Shown: one piece after another, positions 2,277-13,095 of the stretch
Layout of the letters: each line of letters begins with the position of its first letter
Position numbering within the stretch: position 1 is the first letter of the stretch
From: Pseudomonadota bacterium
GTDB lineage: Bacteria > CALINM01
DNA: 17,924 nt
NCBI GenBank assembly: GCA_026415985.1
Contig: JAOAGA010000029.1
Coordinates: 1-17,924 of the forward strand
Direction of reading: 5' to 3'
Notes under the pieces: generated by a model
What the model was told of the DNA's origin: nothing
The model's database searches: none
The model's input: only the letters and a program-made list of their open reading frames with translations
Translations under genes and position numbers: made by a program

Positions 2277-4022
2277 ATGGAAAAGATTGGTGAGCTTTTA
2301 CTCAAAGAAAGGGTTATAACGCCTGATCAGCTTAAGAAAGCCATAGAAGAGCAGAAAATCCATGGTGGTAGATTAGGGTCCACTATGGTTAACTTAGGGT
2401 TTATAAAAGAGTATGAGCTTGTTAATTTTCTAAGCAAGCAGTATGGTGTGCCTGCAGTTAATCTGAGAGAGTTTGAGATAGACCCGAAAATAGCAAAGGT
2501 TGTTCCTTATGAGGTTTGTGAGAAATATACTTTAATACCGATAAACAGAGCAGGTTCAACTTTAATAGTTGCTATTGCAGACCCTTCTAATATATTTGCC
2601 ATTGATGATGTGAAGTTTTTGACCGGCTATAATGTGGAGGTTGTAGTCTCTTCAGAGGCGGCGATTAAGGAAGCTATAGAAAGGGAGTTTAAAAAGTCAT
2701 CGGCCAAAGAACAGGAAACTCAACCGGAGGCTGGTTCAGAGTTAGAAGATATTTCTTTAGAAGATACCATTCAGCTAATAGAAGATGTGGAAGATATTGA
2801 AGTAGTTCAGGAAGAAGAAGATGTCAATATTTCCGAGTTGCAGAAAGCTACAGAAGATGCGCCCGTTGTAAAGCTTGTTAATGCCATTCTCAATGAAGCA
2901 ATAAAAAGAAGGGCCAGCGATATCCATGTAGAACCCTATGAGAAAACCTTTCGTGTCAGATTCAGGATAGATGGTGTCCTTCAGGAGATAATGACTCCAC
3001 CACTGAAACTAAAGAACGCTATAGTATCAAGGTTAAAGATACTATCAAGCCTTGATATCGCTGAAAGAAGGCTTCCTCAGGACGGACGCATAAAGCTTAA
3101 ATTAGGTCGCGGGAGAGAGATGGATTTCAGGGTAAATACACTTCCTACGCTTTTTGGTGAAAAGGTTTGTTTAAGACTTTTGGATAAGTCAAACTTACAG
3201 CTTGATATGACAAAGTTAGGTTTCAGTGAGGAACAGCTTAAGCTTTTTAAAGATGCCATTCACAGACCCTACGGGATGGTTTTGGTAACCGGTCCCACCG
3301 GTTCCGGTAAGACAACAACTCTCTATTCTGCCCTTGCAGAGCTCAATAAAATTACTGAAAATATCTCAACAGCAGAAGATCCTGTTGAATATAATCTTGC
3401 AGGAATAAATCAGGTTCAGATGAATGAAGCAATTGGACTAAATTTTGCCAATGTTTTGAGGGCTTTTTTAAGACAGGATCCGGACATAATAATGGTTGGT
3501 GAGATCAGAGATTTTGAAACGGCAGAAATAGCCATAAAGGCTGCGCTTACCGGCCATCTGGTTTTATCAACCCTTCATACTAACGACGCACCGAGCACTA
3601 TAGCCAGATTACTGAATATGGGAGTTGAGCCTTTTCTTGTTGCTTCAGCTACAAATCTCGTTCTTGCCCAGAGATTAGCAAGGAAAATATGTCAGGAATG
3701 CAAAGAGCCTATCAATGTGCCGGTCAAAGCCCTCGTAGATATAGGCATACCACCGGAAGAGGCAAAAGAAATAGTTTGCTATAAAGGTAAGGGTTGTAAC
3801 ACCTGTGGGAATACCGGTTTTAAAGGAAGGATAGCTCTTTATGAAGTTATGATGCTATATGATGAGTTAAAAGAACTGATTCTCGCGGGAGCACCTGCAA
3901 GTGAGCTGAAAAGAGCAGCAATGAGGCTTGGTATGGTTACTCTAAGACAAAGCGGTATAGAAAAATTAAAAGCTGGAATAACCACTATTGAAGAAGTAGT
4001 TAGATGTTCAGTGAAGGACTAA
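2277..4022 (+). CDS. pilB: Type IV pilus extension ATPase PilB (GspE/PilB family)
   Basis: This is the cytoplasmic hexameric secretion ATPase that powers pilin polymerisation. The N-terminal MshEN region (about 1-140) holds two related repeats: IGELLLKERVITPDQL (4-19) and RLGSTMVNLGF (32-42), the latter followed by the L-x3-L-x2-Q tail. This is the pattern described for c-di-GMP binding. An acidic linker (about 145-190) leads to the ATPase core. The core has Walker A GPTGSGKTT (339-347), the Asp box around AEDPVEY (366-372), Walker B IIMVGEIRD (404-412) and the His box GHLVLSTLHTN (426-436). A zinc-binding tetracysteine (C472, C475, C507, C510) distinguishes PilB/GspE from PilT. Its length of 581 is normal. 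The start matches the family, but no Shine-Dalgarno precedes it. With no secretin or other T2SS genes nearby and pilT/pilC following, the pilus role is much more likely than type II secretion. Confidence 0.95.
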   Translation: MEKIGELLLKERVITPDQLKKAIEEQKIHGGRLGSTMVNLGFIKEYELVNFLSKQYGVPAVNLREFEIDPKIAKVVPYEVCEKYTLIPINRAGSTLIVAIADPSNIFAIDDVKFLTGYNVEVVVSSEAAIKEAIEREFKKSSAKEQETQPEAGSELEDISLEDTIQLIEDVEDIEVVQEEEDVNISELQKATEDAPVVKLVNAILNEAIKRRASDIHVEPYEKTFRVRFRIDGVLQEIMTPPLKLKNAIVSRLKILSSLDIAERRLPQDGRIKLKLGRGREMDFRVNTLPTLFGEKVCLRLLDKSNLQLDMTKLGFSEEQLKLFKDAIHRPYGMVLVTGPTGSGKTTTLYSALAELNKITENISTAEDPVEYNLAGINQVQMNEAIGLNFANVLRAFLRQDPDIIMVGEIRDFETAEIAIKAALTGHLVLSTLHTNDAPSTIARLLNMGVEPFLVASATNLVLAQRLARKICQECKEPINVPVKALVDIGIPPEEAKEIVCYKGKGCNTCGNTGFKGRIALYEVMMLYDELKELILAGAPASELKRAAMRLGMVTLRQSGIEKLKAGITTIEEVVRCSVKD

Positions 4023-5142: not shown

Positions 5143-6336
5143 ATGCCCACTTATAGCTGGCAGGGGAAAAACAGAGCGGGAAGGGTTATAAAAGGCAAAA
5201 TCGATGCAAAAAATGTTGATGAGGTATATAAATATTTAGCTCAACAACTTATAACTCCCATTAAGGTAGAAGAATCAAAAGAGAAGGTAAAAAGTGCCAA
5301 GGTCCCTATAAAAGATATTGTTATATTCACCAGGCAGTTCTCGACCATGATAGATGCGGGACTTCCTCTTGTGCAAAGCTTAGATATTCTTGCAGCTCAG
5401 CAACCTATTAAGGCCTTCAAAGAAGTTTTGTTAGCGGTAAAAAATGATGTAGAACAGGGTACTACCCTTGCTGATGCTTTAAAAAAGCATCCGAAGGTCT
5501 TTGATGATCTTTATGTTGGACTTGTTGCTGCCGGTGAGATGGGTGGAATGCTTGATACAATTCTCAACAGATTAGCAACATACATGGAGAAGGCGGAAAA
5601 ACTGAAAAAGAGGGTTAAAGGTGCTCTTACATATCCTATTGCTGTTATCGGCATAGCGGTTATTGTTGTGGCGGTTATACTTATCTGGGTTATTCCTGTT
5701 TTCCAGAAGATGTTTGCTGATTTTGGTGGTGAGCTACCCGCACCAACACAGTTTGTTATAAACTTGAGTCAGGGGTTAAAAAAATATGGTATCTTTATAG
5801 TAATAGGTTTTTTTGTATTATCTTCGGTTATTAAAAAATATTACGGAACACCAAAGGGGAGAAGAAAGATAGATGCCCTTTTATTAAAGGTTCCGGTTTT
5901 TTCAGATATTATAAGAAAAAGTAGTGTTGCAAGGTTTACAAGAACGCTTGGGACAATGATTCAAAGTGGAGTACAGATACTTGATGCGATGGATATAGTT
6001 GCAAAGACTGCCGGTAATAAGATAGTTGAAGATGCCATTGTTAACGCTAAGGTATCTATATCACAAGGTAAAACTATTGCAGAGCCTATAGGTGAAAGTG
6101 GTGTTTTCCCACCTATGGTTGTTCAGATGATTGCTGTGGGTGAGGCTACCGGTGCTATGGATACGATGTTAAACAAGATAGCAGATTTTTATGAAGAAGA
6201 AGTGGACGCAGCTGTTGATGCCTTAACAGCCCTTCTTGAGCCAATGTTGATGGTGGGGTTAGGTAGTATTCTCGGTGGTTTAATAATCTCTATGTACCTG
6301 CCTATTTTCAAACTTGCAGGCGCTGCAGGAGGATAA
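5143..6336 (+). CDS. pilC: Type IV pilus inner-membrane platform protein PilC
   Basis: PilC is the integral membrane platform of the pilus machine; it couples the PilB and PilT motors to pilin movement. Two homologous T2SSF domains are visible. The first (about 60-190) contains FTRQFSTMIDAGLPLVQSL and ends in a membrane helix (165-187). The second (about 262-388) contains FTRTLGTMIQSGVQILDAM and ends in a membrane helix (365-388). A further helix is at 215-230. The paired GEMGGMLDT (131-139) and GEATGAMDT (333-341) show the internal duplication. Its length of 397 is normal. A perfect AAGGAGGT (5123-5130) overlaps the pilT stop, 12 nt before the ATG, which is a rather long spacing. It ends at 6336, close to the next start. 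Confidence 0.95.
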   Translation: MPTYSWQGKNRAGRVIKGKIDAKNVDEVYKYLAQQLITPIKVEESKEKVKSAKVPIKDIVIFTRQFSTMIDAGLPLVQSLDILAAQQPIKAFKEVLLAVKNDVEQGTTLADALKKHPKVFDDLYVGLVAAGEMGGMLDTILNRLATYMEKAEKLKKRVKGALTYPIAVIGIAVIVVAVILIWVIPVFQKMFADFGGELPAPTQFVINLSQGLKKYGIFIVIGFFVLSSVIKKYYGTPKGRRKIDALLLKVPVFSDIIRKSSVARFTRTLGTMIQSGVQILDAMDIVAKTAGNKIVEDAIVNAKVSISQGKTIAEPIGESGVFPPMVVQMIAVGEATGAMDTMLNKIADFYEEEVDAAVDALTALLEPMLMVGLGSILGGLIISMYLPIFKLAGAAGG

Positions 6337-6349
6337 TAACTCCGTTCTT

Positions 6350-7945
6350 ATGTTACCATCCTATGAAATTCCCGTTGAAAGAGTTAGATGGGTATCTCTG
6401 TTTAGAGCCCTTATCGGGCTTGTTTCTTTAGTCCTTGTTATTTACTGGCAGACAAAGATTGAGACAATAGGCGATATTAAAGACTTTTTTAAGATATTAG
6501 TCTTTGTTTTCGGATTATCTCTTATCTATGGCACGGTTCTTATATATCTAAAAAGGGTTTTTGTACTCGGATTAGTTCAGATATTTCTTGACTATTTAAT
6601 AATTGGCTTTATTGTAGCAAAAACAGGTGGTATCGATAGCCCCTTCATATTCTTTTATGTCTTTCCTGTTATTGAAAGTGGCATGTTTTTTGGAAAAAAC
6701 GGCTGTTATTTAGCAACATTTTTTAATCTGTTTTTTCTCGGGCTTGGCTTTGTTCTCCAATACAACAAAGTCTTTCCTTATAGAGATATGCCAAGATATG
6801 TTTATGCAAAGGAAGATTTTTTTTATTACTATTCCATATTCTCTCTTGGATTTCTTGTTTTAGGGCTTTTGATAGCCTATCTTAACTCAGAAACAAGAAA
6901 GTTTAAAGAAAGGCTGAAAAAAAGTGAAGACAGATATCTTGATATGGAACAGCTCAAAAGCGCCATAATTCAAGCTATAGATAGCGGTTTGGTTATAATA
7001 ACAAAAGAAAAGGTAATTTACCCCATTAACGATCTTGCTAAAAAAATAATTACTAAATTGGCATTTAATGAAAAAGATATAGGCGTGATTTTTAAAAATG
7101 AGATTAATACTATTTTTGAAAATCAAGAACCCCAAAAAGTAGAAAAAAAGATAAACTATAATAACAATAATTTTTTCATATCAGCATCTCTTGTCCCCCT
7201 GTATGAACATTCAGGCGAGCTTTTAGGAGTTTTGATTAGCTTTTCTGATATAACAGAAAGAAAGTTTTTGGAAGAACAAATAAGGATAAAAGACAAGTTT
7301 ACCTTTTTAGGAAAATTGTCCACAGTAATCGCCCATGAGATAAAAAATCCCCTTGCTTCTATAAAGGGTAGTATAAACTTTGTTAAAGATTCAATACAAG
7401 GGGAAGGAGATATAAACAGACTATTGGATATATCTTCTAAAGAGCTTGATAGATTAAATAAGGTTATAAATGACTTTTTGTTTTATTCAAGGTATGCTCC
7501 TTTGGAAATAGGTAATATATATATTAAAAATCTCCTTGATGAGATATGGTTCGAGTTAATTTTTTCATCGGAAGATAAGGATAGGTTAAACTTTGTTTTC
7601 GAGGGAGAAGATCTGATTTTTAAGGGTGATCCCAATCAGATGAGGCAGGTTTTTTTAAATTTATTCTTAAACTCCCTTGATGTCCTCAGAGAAAAGGGAG
7701 GAGGTAATATCTATGTGAGGGTCAGAAATGAAGGCGATAAGGTTTTAATAGATTTTGAAGACGATGGCGGAGGTGTAAAAGAAGAATATTTGGACAAGAT
7801 ATTTGATCCCTTTTTCTCCACCAAGAAAAACGGCACGGGACTTGGTCTGGCGATCGTATATAAAATTATTGAGGAGCATAAAGGTCAGATACATGTGTCC
7901 AATACAGAGAGAGGTGCAAAATTCACGATAAGGTTTGAAAAATGA
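6350..7945 (+). CDS. pilS: Membrane sensor histidine kinase PilS
   Basis: This is a polytopic sensor kinase that would phosphorylate the adjacent PilR. Residues 1-185 form about six hydrophobic helices with very short loops, the PilS-type sensor. A weakly conserved PAS-like region (about 205-310) follows. The HisKA H-box is AHEIKNPLASIKG (phospho-acceptor H329). The catalytic domain shows the N-box NLFLNSLDVL, the G1 box DDGGGVKEE, the F-box FDPFFSTKK and the G2 box GTGLGLAI. Start choice: ATG 6350 gives 531 residues and the family-like beginning. An in-frame TTG at 6314 would overlap pilC and has no ribosome-binding site. The nearest AGGAGG (6327-6332) is 17 nt from 6350, unusually far. The stop overlaps pilR by 4 nt (ATGA). 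It is named PilS for its topology and position; the ligand is unknown. Confidence 0.88.
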   Translation: MLPSYEIPVERVRWVSLFRALIGLVSLVLVIYWQTKIETIGDIKDFFKILVFVFGLSLIYGTVLIYLKRVFVLGLVQIFLDYLIIGFIVAKTGGIDSPFIFFYVFPVIESGMFFGKNGCYLATFFNLFFLGLGFVLQYNKVFPYRDMPRYVYAKEDFFYYYSIFSLGFLVLGLLIAYLNSETRKFKERLKKSEDRYLDMEQLKSAIIQAIDSGLVIITKEKVIYPINDLAKKIITKLAFNEKDIGVIFKNEINTIFENQEPQKVEKKINYNNNNFFISASLVPLYEHSGELLGVLISFSDITERKFLEEQIRIKDKFTFLGKLSTVIAHEIKNPLASIKGSINFVKDSIQGEGDINRLLDISSKELDRLNKVINDFLFYSRYAPLEIGNIYIKNLLDEIWFELIFSSEDKDRLNFVFEGEDLIFKGDPNQMRQVFLNLFLNSLDVLREKGGGNIYVRVRNEGDKVLIDFEDDGGGVKEEYLDKIFDPFFSTKKNGTGLGLAIVYKIIEEHKGQIHVSNTERGAKFTIRFEK

Positions 7946-9318
7946 AAGGAAGAATAATAATTGTTGATGATGACAGAAGTTTAAGGGAGATGCTTGAGAT
8001 TATTTTAAAAAGAGAAGATTATGATGTCATTGCCTTTGATAGTGCAGATAGTGCTCTCGATTGGTTAAAGATTAATATAGAGGAGGTTGATGTAATAATC
8101 TCAGATATCATAATGCCTAAGATTGATGGCATCTCGTTCCTGGAGAAGATAAAGGAGATTAATAAAGAGATACCAGTGATCATGATTACCGCAAACACAC
8201 GGGTAGATTATGCAATAGAGGCATTAAAAAGGGGTGCCTATGATTATGTTACCAAACCCTTCAATAATGATGAACTGAAAATAATAATAAAAAATGCTGT
8301 GGAGAAGAAAAATTTAGAAAGTGAGTTAATGAGGCTAAGGTCATTAATTGATAATAAACAATTTCCCATAATATTTTCAAGCAAGATAATGGAAGACCTC
8401 TATTTAAAGGCCATCTCTATTGCAAAAACAAATTCTACTGTTCTTATTACCGGTGAAAGTGGCACCGGAAAAGAGCTTTTTGCAAGATTAATACACAATG
8501 AGAGTGACAGAAAAAACGGTCCCTTTTTTCCTGTAAATTGTGGTGCCATTCCGGAAAATTTAATGGAAAGCGAGCTATTCGGATATGAAAAGGGTGCCTT
8601 TACAGGGGCTATGTCATCAAAGTTAGGCTTTTTTGAATTAGCTAATAACGGCACCATCTTTTTAGATGAGATAGCTGAGCTTCCACTGACCTTGCAGGTA
8701 AAATTGCTGAGGGTACTTGAAGATAGAATGGTTTTAAGATTAGGTGGCAAAAGTCCTGTCCCAACAGATATAAGGGTAATATCTGCTACAAATAAGGATA
8801 TAGAAGAGCTGGTTAAAAATGGCGATTTCAGAGAGGATCTTTATTATCGTCTTAATGTCGTTAGAATAAAGATTCCCCCTTTAAGAGAAAGAAGAGAAGA
8901 TATAATACCACTATCAATGCATTTTCTTAAAAAATGTTCCCAGAGTCACAATAAGACTATAAAAGGTATTACTAAGGATGCGACTTCATTTTTAGAGGCC
9001 TATGATTACCCTGGAAATGTAAGGGAGCTCCAAAATATAATTGAAAGAGCCTGTGTATTTGAGACAGGAGAACTATTAGGAGTAGGCAGTCTGCCTTTAG
9101 AGATATTAGGAAGTAGCAAGACAACTGATTTAACAAACACTAAGGCAGAAGATGTGGTGTTTTCGAACTTTAATCTTGATAAATATATGGAAGATATTGA
9201 AAAAAAGATAATAGAGAAGGCTCTTGAAGAAACGAAGGGAAACAAAAAGGATGCTGCAGAACTGCTTGGAATATCTCTCTGGGCTCTCTACCATCGCCTC
9301 GAAAAGTATAAAAAATAG
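7942..9318 (+). CDS. pilR: Sigma-54-dependent response regulator PilR (NtrC class)
   Basis: PilR activates RNA polymerase holding sigma-54, classically at the pilin promoter. The receiver domain (1-120) has acidic pocket D9-D11, phospho-acceptor D55, switch T83 and K105. The AAA+ domain (about 142-375) has Walker A GESGTGKE (171-178), the sigma-54-contacting loop GAFTGA (218-223), Walker B GTIFLDEI (237-244) and arginine-finger region RLNVVRIKIPPLRER. A Fis-type helix-turn-helix (about 432-455, GNKKDAAELLGISLWALYHR) binds DNA. Its length of 458 is normal and no key residue is missing. The ATG overlaps the pilS stop, so the pair is translationally coupled. No pilA lies in this window, so its main target is elsewhere; the sigma-54 promoter near 10210 is a possible extra target. 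Confidence 0.92.
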   Translation: MKGRIIIVDDDRSLREMLEIILKREDYDVIAFDSADSALDWLKINIEEVDVIISDIIMPKIDGISFLEKIKEINKEIPVIMITANTRVDYAIEALKRGAYDYVTKPFNNDELKIIIKNAVEKKNLESELMRLRSLIDNKQFPIIFSSKIMEDLYLKAISIAKTNSTVLITGESGTGKELFARLIHNESDRKNGPFFPVNCGAIPENLMESELFGYEKGAFTGAMSSKLGFFELANNGTIFLDEIAELPLTLQVKLLRVLEDRMVLRLGGKSPVPTDIRVISATNKDIEELVKNGDFREDLYYRLNVVRIKIPPLRERREDIIPLSMHFLKKCSQSHNKTIKGITKDATSFLEAYDYPGNVRELQNIIERACVFETGELLGVGSLPLEILGSSKTTDLTNTKAEDVVFSNFNLDKYMEDIEKKIIEKALEETKGNKKDAAELLGISLWALYHRLEKYKK

Positions 9319-9344
9319 GAATTTTTTTATTTTCTTTTTTTGTG

Positions 9345-9350
9345 TATAAT
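9345..9350 (+). promoter_or_regulatory. Candidate -10 box of fur
   Basis: A perfect TATAAT lies 7 nt before the fur ATG (6 nt between), in the 38-nt gap after pilR. The -35 position is only a T-run and matches poorly. If used, transcription would begin at or within 1-2 nt of the ATG at 9357, making the mRNA leaderless. Read-through from pilR is the alternative. Confidence 0.4.
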
Positions 9351-9356
9351 TCACTA

Positions 9357-9788
9357 ATGGAAGAAAATATTGACGAACTTAAAAAATTTCTTAAAACCAA
9401 GGGACTCAGGTTTACAAAGCAAAGAGAGGTAATAGTCAACGAGTTTTTAAAAACAGGGTCTCATATAAGCGCGGGAGAACTCTACCGGAAAGTTTCAGCT
9501 AAATATAAAAATATTGGTTTCGCAACCGTTTACAGGACTCTTAAGGTGCTTATAGAGTTCGGACTTGCAGAAGGTAAAAGTTTCGGAGATGGCCAAGCAA
9601 GGTTTGAGCCATCGAAACAAACATCTCATCATGATCATTTAATCTGTGAAAAATGCGGAAAGATTTTAGAGTTTTACGATTCCAATCTTGAAAAGATTCA
9701 GGAAGAGATATCAAAAAAGTTTGGATTTACCATCAAAAGACATGATTTACAAATTTACGGTCTTTGTAAAAAATGTAATAAATCTTAA
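9357..9788 (+). CDS. fur: Ferric uptake regulator (Fur family repressor)
   Basis: This is a dimeric metal-sensing repressor; with Fe(II) bound it would shut off iron-uptake genes. The winged helix spans about 10-85, with recognition region GFATVYRTLKVL (54-65). Sensor-site candidates are H36, E84 and the HHDH cluster (91-94). The C-terminal dimerisation domain carries CxxC pairs C97/C100 (CEKC) and C137/C140 (CKKC), the structural zinc site, and H129. HHDHLICEKCGKILEF is closest to true Fur rather than PerR or Zur, but metal specificity cannot be proven by eye. Start choice: ATG 9357 (143 residues); a GTG at 9342 would add five residues, but overlaps the -10 box and lacks a ribosome-binding site. 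No Shine-Dalgarno precedes 9357 either. No clear Fur box is seen upstream. Confidence 0.9.
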   Translation: MEENIDELKKFLKTKGLRFTKQREVIVNEFLKTGSHISAGELYRKVSAKYKNIGFATVYRTLKVLIEFGLAEGKSFGDGQARFEPSKQTSHHDHLICEKCGKILEFYDSNLEKIQEEISKKFGFTIKRHDLQIYGLCKKCNKS

Positions 9789-9810: not shown

Positions 9811-9850
9811 AAAAAATAGGTAGGAATCAAAGTGTTCCCTACCTATTTTT
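9811..9850. terminator. Bidirectional terminator between fur and the convergent small gene
   Basis: AAAAATAGGTAGGAA (from 9812) pairs with TTCCCTACCTATTTTT (9835-9850), with one bulged C and a loop of about 8 nt. It has A- and T-tracts on the outside. It lies 23 nt after the fur stop and about 19 nt after the minus-strand stop at 9869, so it can end both convergent transcripts. Confidence 0.85.
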
Positions 9851-9868: not shown

Positions 9869-10156
9869 TTATTTTTTTGCGGGAGCTGCTGGAGCTGGTG
9901 CTGCAGGAGCAGGAGCTGCTTCTTTTTTCTCCTCTTTCTTCTCCTCTTTCTTCTCAGCCTTTTTTGCAGCCTTTTTCTTGGATTTCTTTTCTACCTTTTT
10001 CTCTTCTTTCTTTTCCTCTTTCTTCTCAGCAGGAGCTGCTGCAGGAGCTGCTTCTTTCTTCTCAGCTGGTTTTGCGGCTGGTGCCTGAGCAAAAGCAAAG
10101 CTTGAGAATACAACCATCAACATAGCTGCTAATACTGCGGTAAAAACTTTTTTCAT
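9869..10156 (-). CDS. Small secreted Ala/Lys/Glu/Pro-rich low-complexity protein
   Basis: The 95-residue precursor is of unrecognised family. A clear Sec signal peptide (MKKVF then a hydrophobic core, ending SSFAFA) predicts cleavage after residue 23. The 72-residue mature part is almost only four amino acids: 24 Lys, 22 Ala, 14 Glu and 9 Pro, plus one Gln, Val and Ser (net about +10). It is laid out as an Ala/Pro arm (about 24-43), a charged block of EEKK-type repeats (about 44-79, likely a single stable helix), a second Ala/Pro arm (80-93) and a terminal KK. There is no Cys, aromatic residue or membrane anchor, so it is probably free in the periplasm or exported. The Shine-Dalgarno GGGAGGTGAT (minus strand, 10170-10161) is near-perfect, and a sigma-54 promoter lies upstream, both implying strong, switchable expression. 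It is reminiscent of the acid-shock protein Asr in style only. Function unknown. Confidence 0.82.
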   Translation of the reverse strand: MKKVFTAVLAAMLMVVFSSFAFAQAPAAKPAEKKEAAPAAAPAEKKEEKKEEKKVEKKSKKKAAKKAEKKEEKKEEKKEAAPAPAAPAPAAPAKK

Positions 10157-10202
10157 CTAAATCACCTCCCTTTTCTGTTATTTAAAAATCGATTTTAATA
10201 TA

Positions 10203-10219
10203 AGCAAAAAAAATGCCAA
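10203..10219 (-). promoter_or_regulatory. Sigma-54 (-24/-12) promoter of the small secreted protein
   Basis: On the minus strand the sequence reads TTGGCA, eight T, GCT, against the consensus TGGCAC-N5-TTGC. The invariant GG and GC are separated by exactly 10 nt, and TGGCAT plus TTGCT match the two boxes with one mismatch. Transcription would start near 10192, giving a leader of about 36 nt containing the strong Shine-Dalgarno. Genes for two sigma-54 activators (pilR and the NtrC-type gene at 10290-11675) flank it. Confidence 0.75.
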
Positions 10220-10265
10220 TTTATAACATATTGATTTTAAAGAAAACATAAAAATATTGCCAATT
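10214..10265 (-). repeat. Direct repeat AATTGGCA upstream of the sigma-54 promoter
   Basis: The octamer AATTGGCA (minus strand) occurs at 10221-10214, where it forms the -24 box, and again at 10265-10258, 44 bp further upstream. The upstream copy is followed by a T-rich stretch but lacks the GC at the -12 position, so it is not a second sigma-54 promoter. It may be chance in AT-rich DNA, a duplicated promoter remnant, or part of an activator or IHF site. Confidence 0.35.
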
Positions 10266-10289
10266 AACAAATGACTTTTTGGTATAATT

Positions 10290-11675
10290 TTAACGTTTTG
10301 GTGTATTTTTCTCTTCTTTAAGGCCATACTTTTCCAATCTGTACTGAAGGGTTCTGTAGGTAATACCAAGAATCTTGCAGGCTTTGCTCATTTTCCATCT
10401 GCTTTCTTCCATTGCCTTTAGAATGAGATTTTTTTCAATCTCTTCCAGATTTAGGTTTTTTTCAGGATTGTTTGTTTGTGAGTTATCTTTTTCTGACTGA
10501 TGATTATATCCGGAAAGGTAAGGAATCAGGTCATCTTTTTTAATCTCGTCTGAGTCAGAGTTAATTATTGCCTTTTGGATTATTGATTCCAGCTCTCTTA
10601 TATTGCCATAAAAGGGATAATCCAGGAGTGTTTTTAATGCCTCTTTGTTTAAAAATTTAATGGCACCTCCCGCTAAGTACTTATATTTATCCAAAAAGTA
10701 GTTGACTAAGATAGGTATATCGCTACTACGTTCCCTTAATGGTGGTAGTTTTAAAAAGAATATGTTTAATCTATAATACAGATCTGCTCTGAATTTTCCG
10801 TTCTTTATCTCTTCTTCTAAGTTTTTATTGGTAGCGGAAACTATTCTTACATCAACTTTTACAGGTATTGTGGAGCCTACGGGGAATATTTCTTTATTCT
10901 GCAGGAATCTCAAAAGTTTTGCCTGGGTTGCTAAAGGCATTTCTGATATTTCATCTAAAAAGATAGTTCCACCATTACCTGCTTGGAAGATACCGCTCTT
11001 TTTTGTTGTTGCACCTGTAAAGGCTCCCCGCTCATAACCAAAGAGCTCGCTTTCTATCAGGTTTTCCGGTATTGCAGCACAGTTTATAGGGATAAAAGGT
11101 TTATCTTTTCTTGAGCTGATTTTATGTATTAGTCTGGCAATTAGTTCTTTACCGGTTCCGCTTTCTCCGCTAATCAAAACAGTCGAGTCAAAATTTGCAA
11201 TTTTGAAAACTGTCTTTATCACATTTTTAAAGGAGGGGTGTTCACCTATTATTCCCTCAAACTCTTCTTTGGATGAAAGTTTAGAAGATAAAAATTTTCT
11301 TTCCTTTAAAAGGGTAGTTCTTTCAACAGCCTTTTTTAAGATTGATAATAGTTGTTCTTTTTCAAAGGGTTTTGTTATGTAATCAAAGGCTCCTCTTTTT
11401 ATAGCAGAGACTGCAGAATCAATGGTTCCATGGCCTGTGATGATTATTATGGAAGTATCCGGAGATATAAGAAGAATCTCCTCCATAAACTCAATACCAT
11501 CCATCTTGGGTAGTTTCAGATCGGTTATAACTGCATCAAAATCATTTTCTTTATAGATTTTTAATGCCTCTTCCGCTGAGGGAGAACAAAAAGTCTCATA
11601 TCCTTCTTTCTCTAAAATTAATTTTAGTATATCTCTTTGTTTTTTTTCATCATCTACTACAAGAATCTTAGGCAT
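10290..11675 (-). CDS. NtrC-class sigma-54-dependent response regulator
   Basis: This second sigma-54 enhancer-binding regulator has 461 residues. The receiver domain (1-115) has D8-D9, phospho-acceptor D52, T80 and K102. The AAA+ ATPase domain (about 141-370) has Walker A GESGTGKE (170-177), the GAFTGA loop (217-222) intact, Walker B GTIFLDEI (236-243) and RLNIFFLKLPPLRER. A polar linker (about 393-415) leads to a Fis-type helix-turn-helix (MSKACKILGITYRTLQYRL). All elements for sigma-54 activation are present. Its ATG overlaps the upstream kinase stop by 8 nt, making them a cognate pair. It is distinct from PilR in sequence and linker. The only nearby target seen is the sigma-54 promoter at about 10203-10219, downstream of its own stop; this link is inference. 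No hairpin terminator is evident after it, so read-through into the small gene is possible. Confidence 0.92.
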   Translation of the reverse strand: MPKILVVDDEKKQRDILKLILEKEGYETFCSPSAEEALKIYKENDFDAVITDLKLPKMDGIEFMEEILLISPDTSIIIITGHGTIDSAVSAIKRGAFDYITKPFEKEQLLSILKKAVERTTLLKERKFLSSKLSSKEEFEGIIGEHPSFKNVIKTVFKIANFDSTVLISGESGTGKELIARLIHKISSRKDKPFIPINCAAIPENLIESELFGYERGAFTGATTKKSGIFQAGNGGTIFLDEISEMPLATQAKLLRFLQNKEIFPVGSTIPVKVDVRIVSATNKNLEEEIKNGKFRADLYYRLNIFFLKLPPLRERSSDIPILVNYFLDKYKYLAGGAIKFLNKEALKTLLDYPFYGNIRELESIIQKAIINSDSDEIKKDDLIPYLSGYNHQSEKDNSQTNNPEKNLNLEEIEKNLILKAMEESRWKMSKACKILGITYRTLQYRLEKYGLKEEKNTPKR

Positions 11676-13095
11676 CTTTAATATCCTTATCGAAGGTTAT
11701 AATAAACTCTGCCCCCTCTTTATAATTTGTGTTAAGATAAATATTGCCATTGTGTTCAAAGATAATCTTTTTTGTAAAGGCAAGTCCAAGCCCCATGCCA
11801 TTAGCCTTTGAAGAAAAATATGGTTCAAAGATCTTTTCCTTCAAATTTTCATCGATGCCCTCGCCATCATCTTTAAAGGATATAATGATTTTTTCTTTTT
11901 CTTCTGAAACATCAATTTTTATATTACCTTCATTTTTGATTGATTCGATAGAGTTCAGAAGGAGATTCAGGAAACAGCAGGAAAGCTTTTCTTTGTCGCC
12001 TAACATATTAATCTTTGTTTTGTTTGAGGTTATACTGACATTTATATCAAGGTCTTTTATCTTGACTTTTGTAAAATCAATAACATCTTTTATAACAGAG
12101 ATAATATCAATCAGTTCAATCTTTAATTTAAGCGGTTTATCATACTCAAGAAAATTTGTCACTAAATTGTTTAGTTTGTTAATCTCATCTTTTATCCCAT
12201 CAAGAAGATCTAACAGAGTATCTTTATCCTGACTGTCTGATTTTATCTCTTCTGATATCTCTGTTATGGCAAGATTTATAAAATTAAGAGGGTTTTTAAT
12301 CTCATGGGCGATGGCAGATGAGAACTGTGCGGTTTTATAATTATTTTCTATGGTATGTATCCTTTTTTCCAGTTCTTTCTTTTGTTTAAGCTTATCTACC
12401 ATATCGTTGAAGTTTTTTATAAGTTCTCTAATTTCCGGGCTATCGTTTATATCATATTCTAAGGTTACAAACTCATCTTTTGCAACCTTTTGAGTGGCGG
12501 TAACGACCTTTTTTATCGGGGCGGTGAATCTTTTTGCCATGAAAATAATTATTATAGTTCCCAAAATATAGATACTTATTGTGGAGAGTAGTCTGAGCAA
12601 GAAATTCTTTTGCTGAAGAGCGGTTAAATTTTCTAAATGCATGATAACATTGATATATCCATAATTTTCATCGCCTATAATTATGGGGATATTTATTTCC
12701 TTAATATTGTCTGGATTTGATTTTACCCCCAGTTCGGCCTTAATAAGAAAATCAGTGTCTTTCTTGCCGAGTTTTAATCCGACCTTTTTGGGGTTGGAGC
12801 TTGCGATTATTTCCTGATTTTCTGATAGAATTGAGATTTCGTTTATACCTCTCTTTTTAAAATTTGCTATGAGTTCCTTTAGTTTTTCCTGAGCAATCTC
12901 GTCTTCACTTGTTAACTTTTGAACACTAACCTGTATCGCCTTTGAGAGCTCATCGACACTATCAGTTACTTCTGAAAGAAATCTTTTCTGAGCGTTTTGG
13001 GAGATGATAAAAAGACTTATAGATGAAAGGGAAAGCAGGGTCATCATAAGAATTATAAGCTTATCTTTAAAACTCAGGTTTCTAAAAAATTTCAT
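11668..13095 (-). CDS. Membrane sensor histidine kinase with periplasmic sensor and HAMP domain
   Basis: This is the partner kinase of the overlapping NtrC-type regulator. It has a membrane helix at about 12-32, a periplasmic sensor of roughly 130 residues (33-165) with a Cache/PDC-like stretch (ISILSENQEIIASSNPKKVG), a second membrane helix at about 168-187 and a HAMP linker (188-240). The H-box is AIAHEIKNPLNFIN (phospho-acceptor H264). The catalytic domain has N-box NLLLNSIES (N377, N381), G1 DDGEG (409-413), F-box FEPYFSS and G2 GMGLGLA (433-439). All catalytic motifs are intact at 475 residues. It is unlike PilS, which has no periplasmic domain. The signal sensed is unknown. The start at 13095 has no Shine-Dalgarno. 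The gene is divergent from mraZ, with 117 nt between them. Confidence 0.9.
   Translation of the reverse strand: MKFFRNLSFKDKLIILMMTLLSLSSISLFIISQNAQKRFLSEVTDSVDELSKAIQVSVQKLTSEDEIAQEKLKELIANFKKRGINEISILSENQEIIASSNPKKVGLKLGKKDTDFLIKAELGVKSNPDNIKEINIPIIIGDENYGYINVIMHLENLTALQQKNFLLRLLSTISIYILGTIIIIFMAKRFTAPIKKVVTATQKVAKDEFVTLEYDINDSPEIRELIKNFNDMVDKLKQKKELEKRIHTIENNYKTAQFSSAIAHEIKNPLNFINLAITEISEEIKSDSQDKDTLLDLLDGIKDEINKLNNLVTNFLEYDKPLKLKIELIDIISVIKDVIDFTKVKIKDLDINVSITSNKTKINMLGDKEKLSCCFLNLLLNSIESIKNEGNIKIDVSEEKEKIIISFKDDGEGIDENLKEKIFEPYFSSKANGMGLGLAFTKKIIFEHNGNIYLNTNYKEGAEFIITFDKDIKDA

Follow-up and report, generated by a model that had tools for sequence, protein, structure and literature searches.

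A secreted Lys/Ala/Glu/Pro-rich protein behind a sigma-54 promoter, in a probable ZraSR-like envelope-stress cluster

The window analysed here, a stretch of DNA of 17,924 nucleotides, carries on its minus strand the KAEP gene (9869–10156), which encodes a secreted Lys/Ala/Glu/Pro protein of 95 aa. Its signal peptide, MKKVFTAVLAAMLMVVFSSFAFA (10088–10156, minus), was assigned by eye and from conservation, as were all signal peptides in this work; cleavage is predicted between AFA and QA, and a helix at residues 2–24 is modelled with high confidence. The mature part of 72 aa (9872–10087, minus) comprises an Ala/Pro-rich arm, a Lys/Glu core and an Ala/Pro-rich tail with terminal KK. A composition count gives K24, A22, E14 and P9, which together make up 69 of the 72 residues and leave three others, with a net charge of +10 and no Arg, His, Cys or aromatic residues. 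The predicted structure of the protein shows a low-confidence helix at 45–80 and is otherwise unstructured; the model does not discriminate between disorder and a single helix, and was dropped as evidence because its confidence was too low. Also set aside were Pfam matches to eukaryotic membrane families, all weak or far below cut-offs, and a weak or below-cut-off PHROG spanin match, since such hits are typical for a low-complexity sequence with a signal peptide. Downstream of the gene is an intrinsic terminator (9812–9850, minus; hairpin −18.1 kcal/mol, z = −5.4) that is U-rich on both strands and is common to KAEP and a convergent gene for a Fur-family regulator (9342–9788, plus). The Fur-family gene is not kept beside KAEP in one of the two relatives (G002), where a different gene is found.

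Conservation within the phylum was assessed by comparing the window with two other genomes (G001 and G002), representing two genera in all. The KAEP gene is single-copy and at the equivalent place in both. The order of kinase, regulator, sigma-54 promoter and KAEP gene is identical in the window, SKW176 (JAOABK010000010.1) and CALINM010000028.1, and in all three genomes this cluster is divergent from mraZ and cell-wall/division genes. Identity to the relatives is 82–88% for the KAEP protein, 64% for the regulator and 55–56% for the kinase. For the two pairs with unsaturated dS, KAEP gives dN/dS values of 0.03 and 0.06, and the signal peptides of G001 and G002 show no amino-acid differences; purifying selection on the protein is strong. 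Repetitive purine-rich sequence opens long frames on both strands, and KAEP could on that ground be taken for a chance low-complexity frame without function. The low dN/dS, the near-invariant signal peptide, the conserved promoter and ribosome site and the gene's own terminator refute this as far as sequence can, and we give the idea practically no credence.

The signals for expression are kept as well. A Shine-Dalgarno sequence, GGGAGGTGAT (10161–10170, minus), lies 4 nt before the ATG, with GGAGGTGAA or GGAGGTGAT at the equivalent place in G001 and G002. Upstream of it we see a perfect-consensus −24/−12 element, TGGCATTTTTTTTGCT (10203–10218, minus), which follows the pattern TGGCA(C/T)-N5-TTGC(A/T) with the GG-N10-GC spacing of sigma-54 promoters and whose position predicts a transcription start at about 10192. 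The relatives carry TTGGCACCAACATTGCT and CTGGCATTTTGTTTGCT at the equivalent place, where the intergenic flanks drift and the −24/−12 letters and their spacing are kept. In the 1.57-Mb genome of the window, a fragmented assembly that is 84% complete, the exact consensus TGGCAYN5TTGCW (TGGCAYNNNNNTTGCW) occurs 13 times versus 0 for the reversed control pattern. Other copies precede an ammonium-transporter-like ORF and a FlgM-like ORF, both recognised by eye, so that some look to have ordinary sigma-54 targets behind them; the same genome gives about 28 matches to NtrC-type activators. A housekeeping sigma-70 promoter would make the sigma-54 element coincidental, with TTGGCA and a TAAAAT 16 nt downstream serving as the −35/−10 pair, and a pattern scan did return two TTGGCA...TAAAAT pairs among five promoter-like sites in all, versus 1.7 expected. 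However, the relatives conserve TGGCA and TTGCT at fixed spacing but have no −10-like hexamer at the corresponding distance, and the sigma-54 element both exceeds its control in the genome and recurs before related genes elsewhere. We therefore consider sigma-70 control very improbable, while sigma-54 regulation of the KAEP gene is well supported at the level of sequence.

A preliminary description of this locus had proposed a clean signal peptide and a 72-residue mature part built almost wholly from four amino acids, preceded by a near-perfect Shine-Dalgarno and a GG-N10-GC promoter starting at about 10192, and it proved correct in each checkable detail, the start being a prediction here as well. 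It had named a lack of conservation of the ORF or promoter in close relatives as grounds for rejection, and both are conserved in G001 and G002. Its view of the product as a secreted cationic low-complexity polypeptide with strong translation signals is likewise supported. The interval it marked spans the gene and promoter and omits the enhancer-like boxes, the terminator and the kinase and regulator genes; in the same way, its interpretation stands as regards the secreted cationic chain, sigma-54 control and Asr-like style, and did not see the kinase–regulator–effector cluster or its recurrence elsewhere.

Directly upstream of KAEP, on the same strand, lie genes for an NtrC-type response regulator (10290–11675, minus) and a sensor histidine kinase (11668–13095, minus). 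Pfam assigns the regulator a receiver domain, an AAA+ sigma-54 activator domain and a Fis-type HTH, and its orthologues stand beside the kinase in other families. The kinase, as judged from Pfam and a predicted model, has two TM segments, a periplasmic alpha/beta domain, HAMP, HisKA and HATPase; it scores 18.6 bits for Cache_WalK against a cut-off of 27, and a fold search with the model gave general kinase matches only. No plasmid copies of the regulator were found. Another kinase with its NtrC-type regulator, a PilSR-like pair, is encoded in the window at 6314–9318 (plus), after pilB/pilT/pilC-like genes; the regulator of that pair is 44% identical to the KAEP-cluster regulator and has a different recognition helix.

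The AAA+ activator is encoded beside a promoter with conserved tandem boxes that form a candidate activator site. Box 1, CCAAAACG (10294–10301, minus), lies 83 nt upstream of the −24 element, and box 2, CCAAAAAG (10275–10282, minus), 64 nt upstream. In the window, G001 and G002 alike, a CC-W4-GG pair is found 83 and 63–64 nt upstream of −24; both relatives have TACCATAAGGTA at the box 1 place, and their pairs read CCATAAGG/CCTTTTGG and CCATAAGG/CGTTTTGG. A genome of another lineage with an orthologous kinase, G172, has boxes CCAAAAGG/CCAAATGG at −116/−94, and the tandem spacing is 19–22 nt across these four genomes. Such a pair arises by chance in 0–6 of 300 shuffles per sequence (0–2%), and none is found at the 12 other sigma-54 sites of the window's genome.

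A full-length orthologue of the kinase was found once per genome in seven tested genomes, with E-values of about 1e-107 to 1e-117 and the next kinase at 1e-43 or weaker. At E ≤ 1e-90 the kinase is present in 17 of 386 sampled genomes, and an NtrC-type regulator then follows it in most regions inspected. In three further families (loci L220, L223 and L224) the gene after the kinase and regulator, in the same orientation, encodes a secreted Lys/Glu-rich protein, of 84 aa in G263 (MKKVIALIVALLFAFAMTSVAFAADKPAAAPKADK...), 150 aa in G126 and 126 aa in G172. The G126 and G172 proteins (L223 5016–5468; L224 about 3070–3450, minus) have a small beta-rich-looking domain between charged arms, for which there is no Pfam match over cut-off and which we take to be perhaps DUF5666-like. 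The gene in G172 is preceded by the promoter TGGCATAGTTACTGCT, and those in G263 (TGGCATGTAATTTGTA) and G126 (TGGCATGATTATTGTA) by promoters with GT instead of GC at −12. In G100 and G366 the kinase gene is instead divergent from a gene whose secreted, K/H-rich product carries a peptidoglycan-binding domain (PF01471, 70.5 bits). The latter genes (L227 1420–1812; L228 8676–9068) have a candidate sigma-54 element, TGGTATAGAACTTGCG, a long way before the start. Kinase-positive G356 carries two tandem KAEP genes behind TGGCACCGTTCCTGCA, distant from the kinase. Within this tandem (L230 1794–2352) the signal peptides are identical, the ribosome sites near-identical and the mature parts different, which looks like a recent duplication whose low-complexity part is drifting.

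The K/H-rich protein with PF01471 beside an orthologous kinase, and the divergent position of the cluster from mraZ and cell-wall synthesis genes in the three phylum genomes, would suit a structural envelope polycation, that is, a spacer or charge neutraliser on peptidoglycan, lipopolysaccharide or surface polymers with no chaperone action. However, the KAEP protein itself has no binding domain and the mraZ adjacency is not seen outside the phylum, so we regard a purely structural role as possible but doubtful.

In a sample of 382 diverse genomes outside the lineages used for model building, three of six KAEP-positive genomes are kinase-positive, versus 13 of the 382 (hypergeometric p of about 6e-4); at a stricter KAEP cut-off the co-occurrence is non-significant (p 0.13). 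Profile recall of low-complexity proteins is poor domain-wide, so absence is weak evidence.

A single weak match (G310) led to an order in which such proteins abound. We call it Geobacterales-like, an affiliation that we infer from pilins closely matching Geobacter-type ‘geopilin’ structures. KAEP-related proteins, unnamed in the libraries searched, are present in 122 of its 141 genomes, often several per genome and with up to eight KAEP profile matches. Their mature parts vary in sequence and length yet retain a net charge of +8.8 (sd 1.2) and a composition with Arg and aromatics nearly absent. The motif TGGCA(C/T)-N5-NTGC is found 53–72 nt before the ATG in 66 of 67 genes examined, with 0.09 expected by shuffling; these 66 genes are related and not independent events, and span many genera as well as paralogues. 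Upstream, 44 of the 66 have an ACC-N8-GGY palindrome (consensus TACCNCAWATGRGGTA), versus about 5 expected, and other spacings are at background level. The site has its midpoint roughly 100 nt upstream of −24, and a further half-site is frequently found about 21 nt beyond it. G356 carries an enhancer site of this same type (19.5 bits, 0/200 shuffles). A scan of the window family with the Geobacterales-type matrix found no site. One good match in the window, at 306–321, was rejected as a terminator-like hairpin; this palindrome lies further down from a tRNA gene (143–216, plus), before a Nif3-like ORF. The recognition helix Y(R/K)TLQYRL is common to the regulators of the window family and the Geobacterales-like order. 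As the enhancer differs by lineage (CC-W4-GG versus ACC-N8-GGT), the same regulator would need to have altered its site.

The KAEP genes inspected in this order are not adjacent to the kinase or regulator, and in some genomes the kinase is present and a KAEP gene is not detected. With the kinase in nearly every genome of the order, comparing its presence with that of KAEP there carries no information and was rejected as a test. Shared neighbours, with identities assigned by eye, provide one hint of a link. A radical-SAM/RNase G gene pair immediately follows the kinase and regulator in Ca. Magnetobacterium casense (L049 5998–12920), and the equivalent radical-SAM/RNase G-like pair has a KAEP gene beside it in two Geobacterales-like genomes (L168 1799–6260; L170 5438–10686).

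These genomes also bear on whether the KAEP protein could be a feedback partner, which would bind the periplasmic sensor domain and hold the kinase off, in the manner of CpxP and ZraP, until damaged envelope parts titrate it away. The position of the window gene directly after kinase and regulator fits this, as does ZraP, which is described as both chaperone and ZraSR repressor in the title of a reference in PMC4987338. Bulk effectors nevertheless fit better with the high copy numbers and off-kinase positions seen in the Geobacterales-like order, and the sequence drifts apart from composition with no folded interface predicted; we judge a feedback role unlikely.

Our preferred reading, which we consider fairly probable, is that the window holds a three-gene envelope-stress circuit, ZraSR-like, with an Asr-like disordered polyampholyte as effector. 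What the sequences show in its favour is the order of the genes, the promoter, the boxes, purifying selection on the protein and the return of the arrangement in other lineages. Weighing against it are the distance of the inspected KAEP genes from kinase and regulator in the Geobacterales-like order, the genomes with a kinase in which no KAEP gene was detected, the lineage difference in enhancers, and the loss of significance of the co-occurrence at the stricter cut-off. In such a circuit the membrane sensor kinase would detect some extracytoplasmic condition and phosphorylate its cognate NtrC-type regulator, which would in turn bind the tandem CC-W4-GG boxes and open the sigma-54 promoter (10218–10203) by ATP hydrolysis. 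The transcript would be short and strongly translated and would end at its own terminator. Its product, exported via the signal peptide, would be a soluble, mostly disordered Lys-rich polyampholyte of net charge +10 that most likely acts in bulk in the periplasm, as Asr does in E. coli, and may protect envelope proteins and polymers through its charge, as a chaperone or shield. The suggested chaperone or charge-shielding role follows by analogy from Asr, reported to be an intrinsically disordered periplasmic chaperone that supports outer-membrane integrity and shows about 1000-fold acid induction (PMC10746267), and from ZraP, which acts as a chaperone in the periplasm and is controlled by a two-component system of the sigma-54 type (PMC4987338).

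A wider proposal, which we put forward tentatively and with slightly more doubt than confidence, is that one orthologous kinase–regulator pair across phyla drives, via sigma-54, effectors whose composition and net charge are conserved and whose sequence is not. Lineages would swap the effector (a pure KAEP chain, KAEP with a small beta-rich domain, or a K/H-rich protein with a peptidoglycan-binding domain) and re-code the enhancer. Should this hold, a widespread class of exported disordered polycations is under sigma-54 control and has been overlooked, since low-complexity filters and family cut-offs remove such proteins from sequence searches. It would also extend envelope-stress circuits of the ZraPSR type to an effector that is non-folded and non-zinc, and would show in a defined instance that selection can act on charge and composition in place of sequence. 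The pairing of KAEP with the kinase and regulator in distantly related bacteria points to a little-noticed form of envelope protection, and as the class is near-universal in the Geobacter-like order, its role is directly testable.

Compared with known proteins, KAEP resembles Asr in having an MKK-type signal peptide, cleavable as judged by eye and conservation, and then a low-complexity chain that is basic by composition. It differs in its many Glu, its lack of His, and its sigma-54 promoter and own two-component system; asr is under other regulators. Searches agree with the preliminary view that the protein is Asr-like in style yet not recognisably Asr. PF06392 (Asr) matched the E. coli control and nothing in the window's genome, and membership of NF033636 was rejected because the score of 19.5 bits falls short of the cut-off of 50, which KAEP-related genes (20–36 bits) also fail to reach. 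Spy and CpxP profiles were not among the matches of the KAEP protein, and one relative matches Spy at 20.9/174 bits. In the literature searched, which covered few subscription papers, there was no description of a sigma-54-controlled acid-shock-like protein or of a KAEP module, and the main text of the G. sulfurreducens RpoN paper is without ‘acid shock’, ‘lysine-rich’ or ‘alanine’. The closest counterparts are the Geobacterales-like proteins, which share with the window protein a signal peptide, Ala/Pro arms, a Lys-rich core, mostly a C-terminal Lys, and a sigma-54 promoter, but which differ in their frequent multiple copies, the distance of those inspected from kinase and regulator, and the ACC-N8-GGT enhancer.

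As in ZraPSR, a membrane kinase and an NtrC-type regulator adjoin a sigma-54-promoter gene for a small secreted protein, here predicted to be periplasmic, and the cytoplasmic part of ZraS is the best crystal-structure match to the predicted kinase model (28% identity). The two systems differ in that the kinase scores 145 bits against the ZraS cut-off of 479 and the regulator 348 against the ZraR cut-off of 760, and in that the KAEP gene lies downstream on the same strand, whereas the ZraPSR effector gene is divergent. Unlike zinc-binding ZraP, the mature KAEP part is of low complexity and offers 0 His and 0 Cys as metal-ligand residues. In short, from sequence comparison we read the KAEP cluster, which lies outside the Asr, ZraS and ZraR cut-offs, as a probable functional counterpart of ZraPSR whose effector is Asr-like.
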